From the IMG/VR virus record IMGVR_UViG_3300046387_001230, positions 1 to 28,776 of that record: a stretch of 28,776 nucleotides of DNA. The stretch is one strand, 5' to 3'. Position numbers and translations under genes: made by a program. The stretch comes from a virus. The notes under the pieces were generated by a model. The model searched no databases, was not told the origin of the DNA, and worked only from the letters and a program-made list of their open reading frames with translations. Each line of letters starts with the position of its first letter. Position 1 is the first letter of the stretch. Below, piece by piece: positions 23,770-28,674 of this stretch.

Positions 23770-24504
23770 TTATTTTTTGTTGTTTTGTATTTTATTTATT
23801 ACATATTTTAATATTTCACTGCGTTTAATATCTTCTGCGCCGAAATAGAAAGTGTGAATACCTTGCTCTTTACTTTCGATATCGTTAAATAATGAATACA
23901 TATCTGCGAATCCACTTTTACCATTAATATCGCTTTGCATAGGATCACCGCAAATTAATAATTTACTTCCTTCTCCTAATCGCGTCATTAACGTAGTTAA
24001 TTCTTTAAATGTGAAATTTTGAGATTCATCCGCGATTACTATTTCATTTCGCCAACTCGCGCCACGTAAATAGTTAATCGGCATGCCTTTTATTATTTCT
24101 TTGTCTTTTACTATGCTTGCTTGACCAGGAATTAATAATTCATCTAGCTTTTCATTCATTGGCATCATGTATGGATTGATTTTTTCCGCCATTTCACCAG
24201 GTAATGCTCCAAGACTCTTTTCGCCACTTTCTGCAATGGTTCGAACATAAGTAATTCCGCGCTCATTGTTCATGTTGTAAAGCTGTAAAGCTCCGTAAAT
24301 CGCGACATATGTTTTACTTGTTCCCGCGGGACCACTAATAAATATTATTTTTGAATTACTGTCAAAGATTATTTTTAATAGTTCTCGTTGTTTTTCAGTT
24401 AAACTAATTTTTTTGAGTTTTATATTAGTTTTTGTTAATGATTTGCGAATTCTTTCGATTTCGTCTTCATTCACGATTTCAGTTTGTTTCTTGCGTCGAG
24501 GCAT
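23770..24504 (-). CDS. phoH: PhoH-like ATPase
   Basis: The 244-residue PhoH-family P-loop NTPase has Walker A GPAGTSKT (58-65), Walker B VIADESQNF, and the family sequences AESGEKSLGALPGEM and ICGDPMQSDI. PhoH proteins are ATPases possibly linked to RNA handling, and are very common in marine phages, where phosphate-stress roles have been proposed but not proven. A basic N-terminus (PRRKKQ) may bind nucleic acid. It is the first gene of the leftward late block as drawn. A TATAAT ends about eight bases before the ATG and no Shine-Dalgarno site is seen, similar to the right-hand genes. Confidence 0.93.
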   Translation of the reverse strand: MPRRKKQTEIVNEDEIERIRKSLTKTNIKLKKISLTEKQRELLKIIFDSNSKIIFISGPAGTSKTYVAIYGALQLYNMNNERGITYVRTIAESGEKSLGALPGEMAEKINPYMMPMNEKLDELLIPGQASIVKDKEIIKGMPINYLRGASWRNEIVIADESQNFTFKELTTLMTRLGEGSKLLICGDPMQSDINGKSGFADMYSLFNDIESKEQGIHTFYFGAEDIKRSEILKYVINKIQNNKK

Positions 24505-24663: not shown

Positions 24664-24743
24664 ACCCACCCCCGGCTGTTCTTGAACAGTTCGATTAAAA
24701 AATGAATCCATTTAATGGGTAGGGTCACACCGGGGCTGGGGGT
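24664..24743 (+). ncRNA. Strongly structured element, possible regulatory RNA
   Basis: Two alternative helices can form. ACCCCCGGC (24668-24676) pairs with GCTGGGGGT (24735-24743) over nine pairs (one G-U). ACCCACCC (24664-24671) pairs with GGGTAGGGT (24717-24725) with one bulged A. The two share bases 24668-24671, so they exclude each other, a layout seen in riboswitch or attenuator switching. Short hairpins TGTT-CTTG-AACA (24677-24688) and CCAT-TTA-ATGG (24708-24718) sit between the arms. In 35% GC surroundings the C and G runs are unusual. It is directly followed by the module shared with the 62-64 base repeats. No known RNA family is recognised. Confidence 0.45.
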
Positions 24744-24746
24744 ATA

Positions 24747-24765
24747 GTGCAATAAAATAGTTGAA
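24747..24765 (+). repeat. Repeat family, half copy R0 (3' module only)
   Basis: GTGCAATAAAATAGTTGAA, identical to the 3' half of the 62-64 base elements at 26400, 27500 and 28568, but joined to a different structured 5' part at 24664-24743. It lies 18 bases before a TTGCAA -35 element. Confidence 0.85.
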
Positions 24766-24783
24766 TCTTTTTTCGCTTTTTTC

Positions 24784-24812
24784 TTGCAATTTTTAAAAAA
24801 ATACATTAATGT
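24784..24812 (+). promoter_or_regulatory. Promoter for the gene at 24821
   Basis: TTGCAA (24784-24789), 17 bases, TAATGT (24807-24812), eight bases, ATG. The -10 is the weakest of the series; the palindrome TGTAATTACA (24810-24819) overlaps it and may hold an operator. Confidence 0.5.
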
Positions 24813-24820
24813 AATTACAT

Positions 24821-25027
24821 ATGATTAAGAAAATAAGAATTAAAAAGTGGTCAACCCACTACAGCGTTAAAGTTTGGGATAACCCATCCCAAGAATATCC
24901 ACGAGTTCGTTCCGCGAACATCGACCGCAAAACAGGTCGAGCTCCATACCTTGACAGAATACTTGCGGAAGAGCAAGACATTTCTTTCTCTCAAATCCAC
25001 GACGATGTGGAAACAATTTGGCAATAA
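24821..25027 (+). CDS. Small basic protein of unknown function
   Basis: The 68-residue protein starts with a basic beta-rich half (IKKIRIKKWSTHYSVKVWDN) and continues with an IDRKTGRAPYLDRI turn and an acidic C-terminus (FSQIHDDVETIWQ). Its IDRKTG hexamer recurs in the protein at 25438, which may be a remote relative. There is no Shine-Dalgarno site; the ATG follows a promoter-type -10 closely. It is the first gene of the rightward block. Small, soluble, non-membrane; function unknown. Confidence 0.7.
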   Translation: MIKKIRIKKWSTHYSVKVWDNPSQEYPRVRSANIDRKTGRAPYLDRILAEEQDISFSQIHDDVETIWQ

Positions 25028-25030
25028 GGC

Positions 25031-25058
25031 TTGACCTTTGCTAGTAAACCTTTAGAAT
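25031..25058 (+). promoter_or_regulatory. Promoter for the gene at 25067
   Basis: TTGACC (25031-25036), 16 bases, TAGAAT (25053-25058), eight bases, ATG. Confidence 0.65.
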
Positions 25059-25066
25059 AAATAATT

Positions 25067-25225
25067 ATGATTAATGTATTCAGAAACCCAAACTTTCAAA
25101 ATTGGTTCAATGTTCTTTACAACGGCAAGCTCGTTGACAACGCAAAGAGTTACTCGAAAGCTTTAGAAATAGCAAAGCAATTAAGCAAGAAAACTCGCTC
25201 GCCTATCCTGTCAAGTAATAAGTAA
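25067..25225 (+). CDS. 52-residue protein, paralogue of the gene at 25693
   Basis: This short gene encodes a protein that aligns end to end with the product at 25693: both have NPNF..WFN...NGKL-DNAKS followed by a basic helix with AKQL and a (T)R-(S/E)PI turn. The two are duplicates within one kilobase, both beginning directly after a leaderless-type promoter. The fold looks like a short beta hairpin plus one helix, with no catalytic motif; such a unit could bind nucleic acid or a protein. The ATG at 25067 gives the best homology and promoter spacing. Confidence 0.75.
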   Translation: MINVFRNPNFQNWFNVLYNGKLVDNAKSYSKALEIAKQLSKKTRSPILSSNK

Positions 25226-25244
25226 CCTAAACAACTAAAAAATT

Positions 25245-25322
25245 ATGATCTTAGAAATTATCTTTTTCGCCAATATGTCTCTCGTATTCTACTTTATGTT
25301 TAGCGATCTACTAACTGACTAA
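25245..25322 (+). CDS. Tiny hydrophobic peptide (25 residues)
   Basis: MILEIIFFANMSLVFYFMF is followed by a short polar end, so almost the whole chain is one membrane helix. It lies 19 bases after the previous stop, with no ribosome site, and its stop codon is the TAA that starts repeat copy R1. The reading frame is short, so this is uncertain; two similar hydrophobic peptides precede copy R4. Confidence 0.4.
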   Translation: MILEIIFFANMSLVFYFMFSDLLTD

Positions 25323-25382
25323 AAAGTTGCCCGATCCAACTGGGGCCCCCCGGCGGTTGAATTGTGCAATAAAATAAGAGAA
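25320..25382 (+). repeat. Boundary repeat copy R1
   Basis: It begins TAAAAAGTTGCCCGATCC, then CAACTGGGGCCCCCC, and ends in a GTGCAATAAAAT module that diverges from the others after that (AAGAG instead of AGTTG). The initial TAA is the stop of the tiny gene before it. The GCCC/GGGC stem keeps four pairs with one inner G-G mismatch. Confidence 0.9.
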
Positions 25383-25400
25383 TCTTTTTTCACTTTTTGC

Positions 25401-25429
25401 TTGCAATTTCTGACCTGATGTGCTACCTT
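25401..25429 (+). promoter_or_regulatory. Promoter for the gene at 25438
   Basis: TTGCAA (25401-25406), 17 bases, TACCTT (25424-25429), eight bases, ATG. Confidence 0.65.
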
Positions 25430-25437
25430 GTAGGTAT

Positions 25438-25629
25438 ATGATTAAGATAAATAATAAAGTAAACGGCTTCATTGCCAAAGTAAATATAATTGACCGCAAA
25501 ACCGGCGAGTTAATCAGCGAAAATGTCATGATGAAATGCGAGCATCACGCATCAATTGAAGACTTAAACAAAGATCTCGCCAAGTTTGGACTGCCTAGAA
25601 AGTTTGAACTTGTCGAATGGATAGCGTAA
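25438..25629 (+). CDS. Small protein of unknown function (63 residues)
   Basis: The ATG at 25438 fits the promoter spacing; a GTG at 25420 in the same frame would lie upstream of the expected transcript start. The product has a beta-strand half (KVNGFIAKVNIIDRKTGEL) and a helical half (SIEDLNKDLAKFGLP), with a possible metal-type H-H pair (CEHH) in the middle. The IDRKTG run is shared with the product at 24821. It ends in an acid/aromatic tail (FELVEWIA). No known family. Confidence 0.7.
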   Translation: MIKINNKVNGFIAKVNIIDRKTGELISENVMMKCEHHASIEDLNKDLAKFGLPRKFELVEWIA

Positions 25630-25657
25630 AAAAAACTTAAAAAACTTTCTTTTTTTC

Positions 25658-25686
25658 TTGCAATTGCACAAAAATTTTCATAGATT
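25658..25686 (+). promoter_or_regulatory. Promoter for the operon at 25693
   Basis: TTGCAA (25658-25663), 17 bases, TAGATT (25681-25686), six bases, ATG. This is the consensus layout of the block. Confidence 0.78.
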
Positions 25687-25692
25687 AATATC

Positions 25693-25875
25693 ATGATTAA
25701 GATAATACAAAACCCAAACTTCTCACAATGGTTCAACATCTCGTTTAACGGAAAGCTAATTGACAACGCAAAATCTCGTGCCGAAGCGGTAAGAATCGCA
25801 AAACAATTAAAAGCACAAACACGCGAGCCAATCAAAACAGGAGCTCGCATCATCTCATCAATAGAAAGCGTTTAA
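25693..25875 (+). CDS. 60-residue protein, paralogue of the gene at 25067
   Basis: It shares NPNFSQWFN..FNGKLIDNAKS and AKQLKAQTREPI with the 52-residue product at 25067, with an extra C-terminal tail (GARIISSIESV). It is basic overall. It is the first gene of a three-gene run with 25880 and 26086 (gaps of four and two bases), where no other promoter or ribosome site is visible. Function unknown; duplication suggests a dosage or target-diversity role, which is inference. Confidence 0.78.
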   Translation: MIKIIQNPNFSQWFNISFNGKLIDNAKSRAEAVRIAKQLKAQTREPIKTGARIISSIESV

Positions 25876-25879
25876 TGCT

Positions 25880-26083
25880 ATGACAGAACAAAAAAGATTC
25901 ATTGAACTAGAACTCGGACTCGCTCTTTCTAAAGCCGAAGGGAACCTAAACTTCCTTGCCAATGCAGAAATGAAAACATTCACGCAAGGCGAAGCCGTCT
26001 TGGATGCGTTGCACGCAATACAAGAAGCAAGAAAACAATTGCAAGCAATCCTTCACAAACAAAGACAAAACCAAACAAAATAA
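25880..26083 (+). CDS. Small helical protein, distant paralogue of the gene at 27605
   Basis: The 67-residue, all-helical protein shares its opening with the 67-residue product at 27605: ELELGLALSKAEGNLNFL against ELDFGIKLAQIKGSIEFL, both followed by a variable middle and a final helix. The C-terminus is basic and Gln-rich (QLQAILHKQRQNQTK). Translation is probably coupled to the upstream gene, four bases away. No motif of known function. Confidence 0.7.
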   Translation: MTEQKRFIELELGLALSKAEGNLNFLANAEMKTFTQGEAVLDALHAIQEARKQLQAILHKQRQNQTK

Positions 26084-26085
26084 TT

Positions 26086-26394
26086 ATGCGAAAAGTAACA
26101 GCACAAATAAAAGCAGCCTTCGAGCAAGGCACATCTTTAAAAGTCGGCAACACCGAGACAGACGGCAAAACCGTTTGGCTACATGGTAACGCAATTGTCA
26201 AACGCGATCCTGACGGGCTTGTTAGGTGGTCGCTTGCGGGATGGAATACACCCACCACACGCGAACGCGTCAACGGCATAGCTAACGCGGGCGTCTATCA
26301 GTACAAATTCGAGCCTGTGCTAAATGGTCAAGAAATTAACCCATCCGACTGGTTCGCTTCTAATACTGCTGAGCCAGATCTTCTTGTGTTTTAA
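26086..26394 (+). CDS. Conserved small phage/plasmid-type protein
   Basis: The 102-residue protein shows a pattern I associate with a widespread unnamed family in phages and plasmids: AF near the start, a VGNTETDGKTVWLHGN core, then a GW-x-TPTTRERVNGI ending. The C-terminal third diverges (YKFEPVLNGQEINPSDWF). Function is unknown. It is the last gene of the 25693 run; its end is six bases before repeat copy R2. It starts two bases after the previous stop, with no Shine-Dalgarno site. Confidence 0.75.
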   Translation: MRKVTAQIKAAFEQGTSLKVGNTETDGKTVWLHGNAIVKRDPDGLVRWSLAGWNTPTTRERVNGIANAGVYQYKFEPVLNGQEINPSDWFASNTAEPDLLVF

Positions 26395-26399
26395 CCAAC

Positions 26400-26462
26400 T
26401 AAAAAGTTGCCCGATCCAACTCGGGCCCCCCTGCGAGCAAATTGTGCAATAAAATAGTTGAA
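26400..26462 (+). repeat. Boundary repeat copy R2
   Basis: It begins TAAAAAGTTGCCCGATCC, with a perfect six-pair hairpin GCCCGA-TCCAAC-TCGGGC, then a C run, a TGCGAGC linker and GTGCAATAAAATAGTTGAA. It ends eight bases before the TTGACT of the next promoter, sharing the AGTTTTTC spacer with copy R4. Confidence 0.92.
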
Positions 26463-26470
26463 AGTTTTTC

Positions 26471-26499
26471 TTGACTTTTCGGGGTTTCTGTGCGATGTT
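26471..26499 (+). promoter_or_regulatory. Promoter for the gene at 26505
   Basis: TTGACT (26471-26476), 17 bases, GATGTT (26494-26499), five bases, ATG. The -10 departs from TAnnnT at its first base. Confidence 0.55.
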
Positions 26500-26504
26500 T
26501 AGGT

Positions 26505-26588
26505 ATGAATCAAAAAGATAGACAACCACTCACAGAAAGAGAAAAAATCCTCCTCGCCTTCAAACTTAAAAAACTCAAAAAAAAGTAA
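26505..26588 (+). CDS. Tiny basic peptide (27 residues)
   Basis: The 27 residues begin MNQKDRQPLTEREKILLAF and end in a Lys/Leu tail (LKKLKKK). A single amphipathic, strongly basic helix is expected, so it may bind RNA, DNA or a membrane surface. It is supported by its own promoter rather than by length, so its reality depends on transcript data. Confidence 0.5.
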   Translation: MNQKDRQPLTEREKILLAFKLKKLKKK

Positions 26589-26596
26589 AATAAAGT

Positions 26597-26625
26597 TTGA
26601 CTTTTGCTAAAATATATAATAGATT
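26597..26625 (+). promoter_or_regulatory. Promoter for the gene at 26632
   Basis: TTGACT (26597-26602), 17 bases, TAGATT (26620-26625), six bases, ATG; consensus layout. Confidence 0.8.
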
Positions 26626-26631
26626 GTAAAT

Positions 26632-26832
26632 ATGATTAAGACAACAGAACAAATAAAAAACGAAATCGCAATAGAAAAAAACCAACTTGCAATGTGGCAA
26701 GGTAAAATGGATCAAAGCGAAATTGATTGGATCAATGCAAAAATTTCTGACCTCAAGGCTATGCTTCCACAAGCTCGCTATAATGACAAAGTTTTAGCTT
26801 ATGGTTGGAAATCAGTAGAAAGAAACGCTTGA
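26632..26832 (+). CDS. Small helical protein of unknown function (66 residues)
   Basis: It opens MIKTTEQIKNEIAIEKNQL and is predicted to be a helical hairpin (WQGKMDQSEIDWINAKISDL), followed by a short basic tail. It is charged, soluble and lacks cysteine. The MIK-type start recurs in several genes of the block. Downstream, the stop (TGA at 26830) overlaps a TTGACA -35-like hexamer (26829-26834) of the next gene. Function unknown. Confidence 0.7.
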   Translation: MIKTTEQIKNEIAIEKNQLAMWQGKMDQSEIDWINAKISDLKAMLPQARYNDKVLAYGWKSVERNA

Positions 26833-26856
26833 CAGAAAAAAAAATTTATATAAACT
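26829..26856 (+). promoter_or_regulatory. Promoter for the nuclease gene at 26885
   Basis: TTGACA (26829-26834), 16 bases, TAAACT (26851-26856), then 28 bases to ATG. This is the only one of the block with a longer leader, and still without a Shine-Dalgarno site. The -35 includes the previous stop codon. Confidence 0.5.
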
Positions 26857-26884
26857 CAAATCTAATTGCTTAAAAAATAAAATT

Positions 26885-27502
26885 ATGAAACTTGCACAAA
26901 AATCATTCCCAAAAATCAAACAATATGTTCGTAATATCAGCGTACACAACAAACAAAGAGGAAAGCACGGCAAAGCGTTTGAACGCTTCATCTCTGATTA
27001 CTTTGGCTTTCCTACTCATGAACAGCACAACGCAGAAGTTGACTTTCCTGAAGAAATTGTTCGCCAAGGCGGAGTTCCTAAAAAATTGATCGGAGATTGG
27101 GAAGTAAAATACTACAATATAAAAAGCAAAGAAATTCAACTCGGAGACATTGCAAGAAAATTAAAAACAATTAAAAAAGGTTTGGTTTTGGTTGTCGGCT
27201 TTTGGGATGGAACGCCTGAGAATTTAGTTGATGTAAAATTTTACAGAATTAGAACAAATGTTGAAATCTTGAAAATGAAAAATGTTTGGCTTCAAACCTC
27301 TGACTTTGTCAAAGACAAATCAAATCCAATCAAAGAAACAAGAGAATTGTGCAAGGTAGTGAATAGACTGCACGAAGGAGCTTTTTCTGTGATGAATCTA
27401 TCTAGAAATAAAAGGTTCAGCAATAGTTCACAAAAATGGCAGAATGAGGCAAGGCAAATCACTCTCACAGCAAAAATAAATAGACTAACCCAAATCGTCT
27501 AA
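26885..27502 (+). CDS. PD-(D/E)XK-like nuclease
   Basis: This is the largest gene of the block, 205 residues. The early helix (KHGKAFERFISDYFGF, with E32) is followed by AEVDFPEE (D56) and then GDWEVKYY (E-x-K at about 77-79). This is the ordered E, D, ExK set of PD-(D/E)XK nucleases, with a beta strand carrying E-V-K and a following KSKEIQLGDIARK helix. Restriction enzymes, recombination nucleases and small phage nucleases share this core. The C-terminal third is basic and Asn/Ser-rich and may bind DNA. Its TAA stop begins repeat copy R3. Host DNA degradation or a defence role is possible but not shown. Confidence 0.72.
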   Translation: MKLAQKSFPKIKQYVRNISVHNKQRGKHGKAFERFISDYFGFPTHEQHNAEVDFPEEIVRQGGVPKKLIGDWEVKYYNIKSKEIQLGDIARKLKTIKKGLVLVVGFWDGTPENLVDVKFYRIRTNVEILKMKNVWLQTSDFVKDKSNPIKETRELCKVVNRLHEGAFSVMNLSRNKRFSNSSQKWQNEARQITLTAKINRLTQIV

Positions 27503-27561
27503 AAAGTTGCCCGATCCAACTCGGGCCCCCCGCGAGCGGATTGTGCAATAAAATAGTTGAA
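27500..27561 (+). repeat. Boundary repeat copy R3
   Basis: TAAAAAGTTGCCCGATCC, perfect GCCCGA/TCGGGC hairpin, C run, CGCGAGCGGA linker, and GTGCAATAAAATAGTTGAA. Its first three bases are the stop of the nuclease gene. Confidence 0.92.
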
Positions 27562-27569
27562 TTTTAGGC

Positions 27570-27598
27570 TTGTGTTTTGCCGGTTTCTGTGGTAGTTT
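27570..27598 (+). promoter_or_regulatory. Promoter for the gene at 27605
   Basis: TTGTGT (27570-27575), 17 bases, TAGTTT (27593-27598), six bases, ATG. Confidence 0.65.
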
Positions 27599-27604
27599 TT
27601 ACTT

Positions 27605-27808
27605 ATGATTAAGACAAAAGAAACACTCCTCCAAGAACTCGACTTCGGAATTAAGCTCGCTCAAATCAAAGGGTCTATTGAGTTTTTGCATTACATGAAC
27701 ACAGAAAAAAAAGAATCCGCAAGGACTTTGACTGAAGAAATGACAACGCAAGGACTCATTGAAAAGGTTGAAGCTCTTCAAAAAATGTTTAAAGAAATTC
27801 AAAAATAA
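27605..27808 (+). CDS. Small helical protein, distant paralogue of the gene at 25880
   Basis: The 67-residue helical protein has the shared ELDFGIKLAQIKGSIEFL segment, then an acidic/Thr-rich centre (EKKESARTLTEEMTTQG) and a final helix (IEKVEALQKMFKEIQK). Length and layout equal those of the product at 25880. No catalytic motif. Its own promoter is directly upstream. Confidence 0.7.
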   Translation: MIKTKETLLQELDFGIKLAQIKGSIEFLHYMNTEKKESARTLTEEMTTQGLIEKVEALQKMFKEIQK

Positions 27809-27820
27809 ATCGTTTTTAGC

Positions 27821-27849
27821 TTGCAATAAATTAAAAAATCAACTAGATT
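27821..27849 (+). promoter_or_regulatory. Promoter for the gene at 27856
   Basis: TTGCAA (27821-27826), 17 bases, TAGATT (27844-27849), six bases, ATG; consensus layout. Confidence 0.8.
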
Positions 27850-27855
27850 ACTACC

Positions 27856-28041
27856 ATGGACAAAATAAAAGAACTCAAAGAAATCATTCGAATCCAAACA
27901 CCTCTTGCCGATCTTGGCAACATTGAATCCATGCAAATGGTCATCAATGCCCAAATTGAGCTTGACGAGATTCAAGACAATCAAAAAGCACAAAAAACTT
28001 TCATGAAGTTTTTGCTTGCAAAACCTGAAAAATTCGTTTAA
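27856..28041 (+). CDS. Small helical protein of unknown function (61 residues)
   Basis: The all-helical protein has a DKIKELKEIIRIQT start, a NIESMQMVINAQIELDE helix and a basic end (AKPEKFV). No recognised family. Its last codons and stop are shared with the promoter of the next gene: the -35 TTGCAA is inside its C-terminal codons and the TAA is part of the -10. Confidence 0.7.
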   Translation: MDKIKELKEIIRIQTPLADLGNIESMQMVINAQIELDEIQDNQKAQKTFMKFLLAKPEKFV

Positions 28042-28044
28042 TCT
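28016..28044 (+). promoter_or_regulatory. Promoter for the gene at 28052, inside the upstream gene's end
   Basis: TTGCAA (28016-28021), 17 bases, TAATCT (28039-28044), seven bases, ATG. The stop codon of the previous gene supplies TAA of the -10. Confidence 0.65.
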
Positions 28045-28051
28045 AATTACT

Positions 28052-28345
28052 ATGACAGAATCACAAAGACTAGAAAACATCCGTAGAATTGCGGAAAATA
28101 ATAATGCCGAAGTAAGTCCTGTACTTCAAAACTTCATTGAAGAATTAAAGGTCGAAAAGCTTGCTGAAGATCTCGTTCTCGAATATGGCTTACTTAACGC
28201 AAAAAAAGAAGATGTTCAAGATGAAGTTCAAGAGCTTGCTTCTTTTGATGACAAAGCCGAAGAAGATGATGACTTTGACAATGACGAAAATCTTCACGAC
28301 ATGAAATCCGTGAGTCCGTCAATGCGTGAAATCTTCGGAGAATAG
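28052..28345 (+). CDS. Acidic protein of unknown function (97 residues)
   Basis: The start is taken as ATG at 28052; a TTG at 28016 in frame lies in the promoter. The N-terminal half is helical (RLENIRRIAENNNAEVSP, EELKVEKLAEDLVLEYGLL), and the C-terminal half is highly acidic (DDKAEEDDDFDNDENL) with a short basic/aromatic end (MREIFGE). Acidic tails of this kind occur in DNA-mimic and host-enzyme inhibitor proteins of phages, but nothing shows that role here. The stop TAG overlaps the terminator stem. Confidence 0.72.
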   Translation: MTESQRLENIRRIAENNNAEVSPVLQNFIEELKVEKLAEDLVLEYGLLNAKKEDVQDEVQELASFDDKAEEDDDFDNDENLHDMKSVSPSMREIFGE

Positions 28346-28368
28346 GCTTGACTAACAAGCCTTTTTTT
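28345..28368 (+). terminator. Terminator that overlaps the next promoter
   Basis: GGCTTG (28345-28350), loop ACTAA, CAAGCC (28356-28361), then seven T (28362-28368). The stem starts on the last base of the preceding stop codon, and TTGACT inside it is the -35 of the next promoter. Confidence 0.88.
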
Positions 28369-28376
28369 GCTACAAT
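28348..28376 (+). promoter_or_regulatory. Promoter for the peptide genes at 28383
   Basis: TTGACT (28348-28353), 17 bases, TACAAT (28371-28376), six bases, ATG. The spacer is the terminator's 3' arm and T run. Confidence 0.82.
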
Positions 28377-28382
28377 TAGATT

Positions 28383-28457
28383 ATGGAATTAGCACTACTT
28401 CTCTCAATAGCGTTCGTCATTGGCATTTTTCGTGGAATAACCGATTCAGTTTTCTAA
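28383..28457 (+). CDS. Tiny membrane peptide (24 residues)
   Basis: MELALLLSIAFVIGIF then a short polar end (RGITDSVF): a single membrane-helix peptide. It is supported by a strong promoter exactly placed before the ATG. A second similar peptide gene follows after one base. Small hydrophobic phage peptides can act on host membranes, but no role is shown. Confidence 0.52.
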   Translation: MELALLLSIAFVIGIFRGITDSVF

Positions 28458-28458
28458 A

Positions 28459-28530
28459 ATGGAATTACTTTTACTAGAACTAGGTTGCATAATCCTCTCT
28501 CCATTATTCTTTCTTTGGTTCATGCTTTAG
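28459..28530 (+). CDS. Tiny membrane peptide (23 residues)
   Basis: MELLLLELGCIILSPLFFLWF plus two residues; one membrane helix with a cysteine. It starts one base after the previous stop and begins with the same MEL, as if duplicated. Its TAG stop starts the inverted repeat at 28529. Confidence 0.48.
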   Translation: MELLLLELGCIILSPLFFLWFML

Positions 28531-28560
28531 GTCAATAGGTCACTTTTAGTGACCTGACCT
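28529..28560. repeat. Long interrupted inverted repeat
   Basis: AGGTCA-ATA-GGTCAC, loop TTTTA, GTGACC-TGACCT: twelve pairs with a three-base bulge on the left arm. No long T run follows, so it is more likely a transcript-end stabiliser, weak terminator or protein site than a standard terminator. It lies just before repeat copy R4. Confidence 0.75.
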
Positions 28561-28567
28561 TTAGCGT

Positions 28568-28631
28568 TAAAAAGTTGCCCGATCCAACCCGGGCCCCCCT
28601 GCGAGCGAATTGTGCAATAAAATAGTTGAAA
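28568..28631 (+). repeat. Boundary repeat copy R4
   Basis: TAAAAAGTTGCCCGATCC, then CAACCCGGGCCCCCC (five-pair stem with one A-C mismatch), TGCGAGCGAA and GTGCAATAAAATAGTTGAA. It ends eight bases before a TTGACT -35. It is the only full copy not attached to a stop codon. Confidence 0.92.
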
Positions 28632-28639
28632 GTTTTTCT

Positions 28640-28668
28640 TGACTTTTGTGAAAAATTTGACTACATTA
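28640..28668 (+). promoter_or_regulatory. Promoter for the gene at 28675
   Basis: TTGACT (28640-28645), 17 bases, TACATT (28663-28668), six bases, ATG. Confidence 0.78.
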
Positions 28669-28674
28669 CTATCA

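Follow-up and report, generated by a model that had tools for sequence, protein, structure and literature searches.

The phoH-proximal region and its repeated elements

The window, by which we mean the whole 28.8-kb stretch analyzed, is a fragment of a tailed-phage genome encoding TerL, PhoH, a DnaE-type polymerase, and a Clp-family ATPase. Long genes, including the terminase and a structural block, occupy ~6.6 to 24.5 kb, mostly on the minus strand, and phoH is the last of them; beyond it, the right side of the window carries small ORFs arrayed on the plus strand. The ORF at 26086-26394 is a homologue of Kyanoviridae Gp96 (PF23790), homologues of which are also known from cyanophages and from Campylobacter, Vibrio, and Roseobacter phages; in our gene maps, this Gp96-like gene is frequently the final gene ahead of an element. 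Two further small ORFs, 25067-25225 and 25693-25875, are paralogues in adjoining cassettes (DNA ~72% identical over the first 83 nt).

An earlier note on this DNA described four near-identical elements in the array, and all four are found where it placed them (25320, 26400, 27499/27500, and 28568; start-to-start distances of 1080, 1099/1100, and 1068/1069). The window holds exactly four copies of the 20-base head, AAAAAGTTGCCCGATCCAAC, with 0.01 expected by chance, and five of the tail, GTGCAATAAAATAGTTGAA, the fifth being a tail-only copy at 24747 (element 0) preceded by unrelated G-rich sequence. The structural details given for the copies also held: the R1 tail is partly diverged (three mismatches to GTGCAATAAAATAGTTGAA), the GCCCGA-TCCAAC-TCGGGC hairpin is perfect at 26400 and 27500 with one mismatch in each other copy, and the TAA of the head is the stop codon of the preceding ORF at 25320 (a 25-aa ORF, 25245-25322) and at 27500 (ORF 26885-27502). 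A promoter does lie just downstream of each copy, although the -10 of R2 is poor. The ~1.08-kb spacing corresponds to a typical cassette length and not to a strict period, which is ruled out by the range of same-strand spacings across the family (90 to 5474 bp; median, 1069; bulk, ~880 to 1520). The phoH neighborhood of element 0 is the same in several relatives according to the gene maps. This element has its own conserved upstream sequence at 24700-24743, AATGAATYCATTTAATGGGTAGGGT or close variants, and sequence of this type also precedes the phoH-proximal element of L338, L334, L353, L340, L348, L378, and L379. Genes internal to the window cassettes carry box-less promoters of the same form as the element promoters (see the table).

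Table. Coordinates of phoH, the elements with their promoters, and the box-less promoters in the window
Feature	Position	Strand	Details
phoH	23770..24504	-	Pfam PhoH, E=7e-45; divergent neighbor of element 0
Element 0	24744..24820	+	Box 24744-24765; no R-type head, G-rich stretch before
Element 0 promoter	-35 TTGCAA at 24784, -10 TAATGT, ATG 24821	+	Box-to-35 = 40
Element R1	25320..25437	+	Head 25320-25339; box 25361-25382, diverged
Element R1 promoter	-35 TTGCAA at 25401, -10 TACCTT, ATG 25438	+	Box-to-35 = 40
Element R2	26400..26504	+	Head; box 26441-26462; -35 TTGACT at 26471; poor -10; ATG 26505
Element R3	27500..27604	+	Head; box 27540-27561
Element R3 promoter	-35 TTGTGT at 27570, -10 TAGTTT, ATG 27605	+	Box-to-35 = 30
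Element R4	28568..28673	+	Head; box 28609-28630
Element R4 promoter	-35 TTGACT at 28639, -10 TACATT, ATG 28674	+	Box-to-35 = 30
Predicted box-less leaderless promoter	25658..25692	+	TTGCAA-17-TAGATT-6-ATG; inside a cassette
Predicted box-less leaderless promoter	26597..26631	+	TTGACT-17-TAGATT-6-ATG
Predicted box-less leaderless promoter	27821..27855	+	TTGCAA-17-TAGATT-6-ATG; near cassette junction in G029
Predicted box-less leaderless promoter	28348..28382	+	TTGACT-17-TACAAT-6-ATG

The 22-bp box and its promoter across the phage family

The tail is conserved in relatives along with what follows it, namely, a 22-bp box (ATYGTGCAAnAAAATAGTTGAA) and then a sigma70-type promoter, whereas the head differs between phages and even between copies within one phage. 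Used as a family probe, the head pattern GTTGCCCGATCCAAC matched mostly unrelated sequence and was rejected; among its matches, only the relative IMGVR_UViG_3300048030_000536 carries the element. The R1 to R4 heads are near-identical within the window and wholly replaced in a sister phage with 98% identical TerL (window versus G029 and G006), a comparison in which the heads appear to undergo concerted evolution.

Exact searches of IMG/VR, based on the tail or on a relaxed version of its core, located the tail in dozens of viral contigs, many of them with multiple copies; the element and box counts given here include related sequences scored as separate, nonindependent cases, and the contigs are fragmentary. 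TerL was matched in 21 of the 25 contigs of a first set, every one 63 to 91% identical to that of the window (the remaining four are short contigs without a TerL match), and in 12 of the 18 contigs of a second set, 11 at 63 to 98% and one weakly at 27%. Apart from that one exception, every contig that includes the terminase region has a TerL 63 to 98% identical to that of the window, which places the element in a single phage family. Contigs of this family reach 205 kb, and in four of them (184 to 205 kb), most near-exact tails (≤1 mismatch) are confined to one few-kb region. The closest isolate TerL in the phage collection is only ~27% identical (tblastn), and isolated phages gave no credible match to the element with its promoter. 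In cellular genomes, at least 117 exact core matches were found; among the matches listed there was no convincing element copy, and we read them as chance because, of the two in that list with promoter geometry, neither continues as the box. WhiB, sought as a clue to the host, was absent from eight large contigs. The view that the elements are better conserved than the small genes around them needs qualifying: compared with the nearest syntenic relative (G005), identity is 88.9% and 93.6% throughout the region, genes included, but the view holds in the sense that many unrelated gene families have this one element in front of them and that it stays in place through gene swaps.

The promoters follow a rigid grammar. 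The pattern TTG[AC]nn-17-TAnnnT lies exactly 6 nt before an ATG in 173 cases, versus 3.9 in shuffled sequences, and its count has a sharp optimum at a spacer of 17. As in leaderless sigma70 promoters, the -10 box ends 6 nt before the start codon; a -10 at -12 to -7 would place the start site on the A of the ATG, and the mRNAs are therefore predicted to be leaderless. Motifs resembling Shine-Dalgarno sequences are scarce (12 of 103 ORFs versus 6 shuffled). Leaderless-type promoters, searched for as TTGAC-18-TAnnnT-6-ATG (i.e., TTGACn-17), occur genome-wide in the 184- to 205-kb genomes (G001 to G004), at 12 to 20 each and beyond the early array too, and the reversed pattern has zero matches in the same genomes. 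A promoter behind the window copies and this fixed geometry support the boundary role proposed in the earlier note, with the copies marking the starts of transcription units. A counterpoint is that the strict promoter pattern is missing at 27 of 85 box-like sites.

The distance from box start to -35 in 59 pairs is 29 to 30 bp (39 pairs), 40 bp (18 pairs), or 50 to 51 bp (2 pairs) and nowhere else; ten additional pairs from separate searches fall at 30 (8 pairs) and 40 (2 pairs), and a reversed decoy motif gave scattered distances. Because the insert sequences of the longer class differ among themselves, that class is not a single inherited insertion. Such a register of whole helical turns points to a DNA-bound function, either an UP element or an activator site; a one-turn rule is expected of a DNA site on the polymerase's face, whereas neither an RNA hairpin nor a terminator would be expected to follow it. 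Were transcription to start on the A of the ATG, the box in the commonest class would span -65 to -44, where UP elements and class I activator sites lie. In addition, the core ATTGTGCAA is overrepresented (29 of 70 copies outside tails; composition-matched mean, 4.4), and several elements contain an inverted copy of it in the head (9 of 61 versus 1.0 expected), suggesting a putative protein site. A dedicated activator, host encoded or phage delivered, might bind the 22-bp box and drive leaderless early promoters one helical turn apart, with the whole ~200-kb family depending on leaderless initiation and making little or no use of Shine-Dalgarno sequences; we offer this as a tentative proposal, possible rather than probable.

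Cassette rearrangement among close relatives

Gene maps of 16 loci contain the same gene families in different orders, with the elements at the heads of cassettes of one to five genes in a plastic region beside phoH; the orientation of each element follows its downstream gene, on either strand. Two genes that are neighbors in one phage are also neighbors in another in 7 of 43 comparisons when an element lies between them versus 93 of 228 when none does (p=0.002, although the comparisons are not independent). Two relatives, G029 and G038, have TerL 98% identical to that of the window (in G038, over the 419 residues present). In both, phoH and the element 0 box are ~95 to 97% identical to the window, and homology ends at 24769-24791. 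The gene behind element 0 is relocated in G029 behind the homologue of 27605-27808, and in G038 the box of element 0 runs straight into the gene of R1. The R3 unit is homologous from 27539 and the R4 unit from 28617, with their order swapped and their heads different. Compared with these relatives, cassettes have thus been moved or are missing, with break points inside elements.

The suggestion that the copies are exchange points for small-gene units is supported by homology blocks that start or stop within elements. Element cores account for 7.4% of the region but contain 7 of the 20 block boundaries (binomial p, 4e-4, for two relatives with a shared history). The remaining boundaries are at gene ends or box-less promoters, and elements are therefore preferred but not sole junctions. 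In sister phages, the head is replaced while box and promoter stay; the R4 gene of G029 keeps its core promoter without the box, which is therefore not indispensable. Homologous recombination between copies may have caused the cassette changes.

Function of the elements and comparison with known systems

Taken together, we hypothesize, with a probability of about 0.74, that each element heads a transcription unit, combining a phased DNA box with a leaderless sigma70-type promoter and doubling as a homology patch for cassette swapping, the hairpin being accessory. The elements would thus act as multicopy promoter modules, each turning on a set of tiny genes, in uncultured phages of ~200 kb. The box, which lies a set distance upstream of the promoter (TTGAC/TTGCA, 17 bp, TAnnnT) or is farther away by one or two helical turns, may act as DNA: the alpha C-terminal domain of RNA polymerase could contact it as an extended UP element, or a putative activator could bind it. 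Transcription would start on the A of the ATG, yielding a leaderless mRNA for a cassette of one to five small, probably early, genes. Since the same module precedes many cassettes, it could also provide the homology through which cassettes are swapped, lost, or gained. The variable head with its hairpin would most likely insulate or terminate between neighboring or converging units. The sequences themselves show the multiple copies, the geometry of the promoters, the helical register, conservation throughout the family, and cassette rearrangement at elements; all of the regulation is proposed on that basis.

The hairpin is central to the main alternative, namely, that the element chiefly terminates transcription of the upstream gene or forms its 3'-end hairpin, the downstream promoter being a neighbor and not a part of it. 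Heads begin at or right after stop codons, in L334 and L340 the array closes with a promoterless copy (head and GTGCAAT) ahead of converging genes, ordinary sense terminators stand before the box (directly before ATTGTGCAAT) in L342 and L350, and three window copies resemble an intrinsic terminator on the minus strand; antisense terminator-like hairpins exceed expectation family-wide (12 of 61 versus 3 expected). The window copies have no sense-strand T-run, however, and sense-strand terminator-like sites occur at chance frequency (1 of 61 elements versus 0.75 expected), which leaves the termination sites suggested in the earlier note unsupported on the sense strand of the window. The retention of box and promoter where heads are replaced and the helical register of the two also weigh against this alternative, which we consider unlikely. 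A terminator or insulator role for the hairpin in some lineages is plausible. An RNA-binding hairpin is similarly unsupported: the high head:tail complementarity (8.9/12) is equaled by partner-shuffled pairs (9.1), leaving no covariation between head and tail, although a short local stem pairs slightly better with its own partner than by chance. Overall, the elements fold weakly (mean z, -0.67), with 12 of 61 scoring below -2. Rfam returned only a chance-level match elsewhere in the region and no described structured RNA family. Separately, a sense-strand terminator-like hairpin at 28344-28383 (AGGCTTGACTAACAAGCCT and then a T-run) overlaps the -35 of a box-less promoter.

The excess of ATTGTGCAA outside tails and its inverted copies in heads would also suit a repressor operator, stoperator- or immunity-like, in place of an activating site. 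A repressor usually overlaps its promoter, whereas the box core lies ~57 to 64 bp upstream of the predicted start and shifts in helical steps; its placement, like that of UP elements or class I activator sites, makes repression less likely, and we judge an operator improbable. More improbable still is a replication, packaging, or mobile-element end lying between genes by happenstance. Multiple copies, a GC-rich palindromic center, and travel with gene blocks would fit such an end, but the fixed distance to promoters and start codons and the orientation with the downstream gene on either strand would not; neither a transposase nor a target duplication was seen at the element, and nothing points to the packaging or replication signal once suggested.

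The closest parallel lies in the promoter-early stem-loops (PeSLs) of T4-type phages (Arbiol et al. 2010; Comeau et al. 2014), as summarized in PMC4503421 and PMC5348500. According to these summaries, PeSLs likewise combine a multicopy host-type promoter with a stem-loop between small plastic-region genes and are linked to module shuffling. The window family has the multicopy arrangement at small-gene module borders in a plastic region, comparative evidence of shuffling with break points at elements, and sigma70-type geometry in 59 copies, "early" being assigned by analogy. For the stem-loop, the results are mixed, given the weak mean folding and the antisense excess, with sense terminators in some relatives; in the window, the variable stem-loop is terminator-like solely on the opposite strand. 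Also unlike PeSLs as summarized there, the element combines predicted leaderless promoters with a 22-bp upstream box in helical register, and its phage has a DnaE-type polymerase and TerL matches of at most ~27% to listed organisms that are not T4-type. Because the phage family differs and the stem-loop results are mixed, we regard the element as PeSL-like but not a PeSL, the parallel being functional; the repeat family is new in sequence, as claimed, but not in kind.

The haloarchaeal myovirus HGTV-1 has a conserved promoter/inverted-repeat motif before many ORFs that has been likened to PeSLs (PMC3950731); compared by description, it shares the repeated promoter and inverted repeat, although its promoter is archaeal and TATA-like. 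The SAS/ESAS of Cluster K mycobacteriophages, SAS being a 13-bp sequence with a proposed role in translation initiation (PMC3203893), resemble the element in layout but differ in sequence and proposed role; the 13-bp GGGATAGGAGCCC found near start codons has zero matches in the window with up to two mismatches allowed. In TANNNT leaderless promoters of Actinobacteria and Deinococcus-Thermus (PMC3160421), the -10 lies ~12 bp upstream of the start codon with no leader. The window promoters match this -10 position, hence the leaderless prediction, but they differ in a strict TTGAC -35 at 17 bp, in the 22-bp box at cassette heads, and in belonging to a phage. The promoter grammar leads us to expect that the host translates leaderless mRNA, and it would fix the starts of the many tiny ORFs accurately; the 22-bp box provides a probe for finding more phages of this uncultured ~200-kb family. 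Further, these comparisons add an uncultured family to T4-type phages and HGTV-1 as settings for promoter/stem-loop-bounded cassette shuffling, with relatives near enough (TerL 98% identical) to reveal single cassettes moved or missing between element copies.
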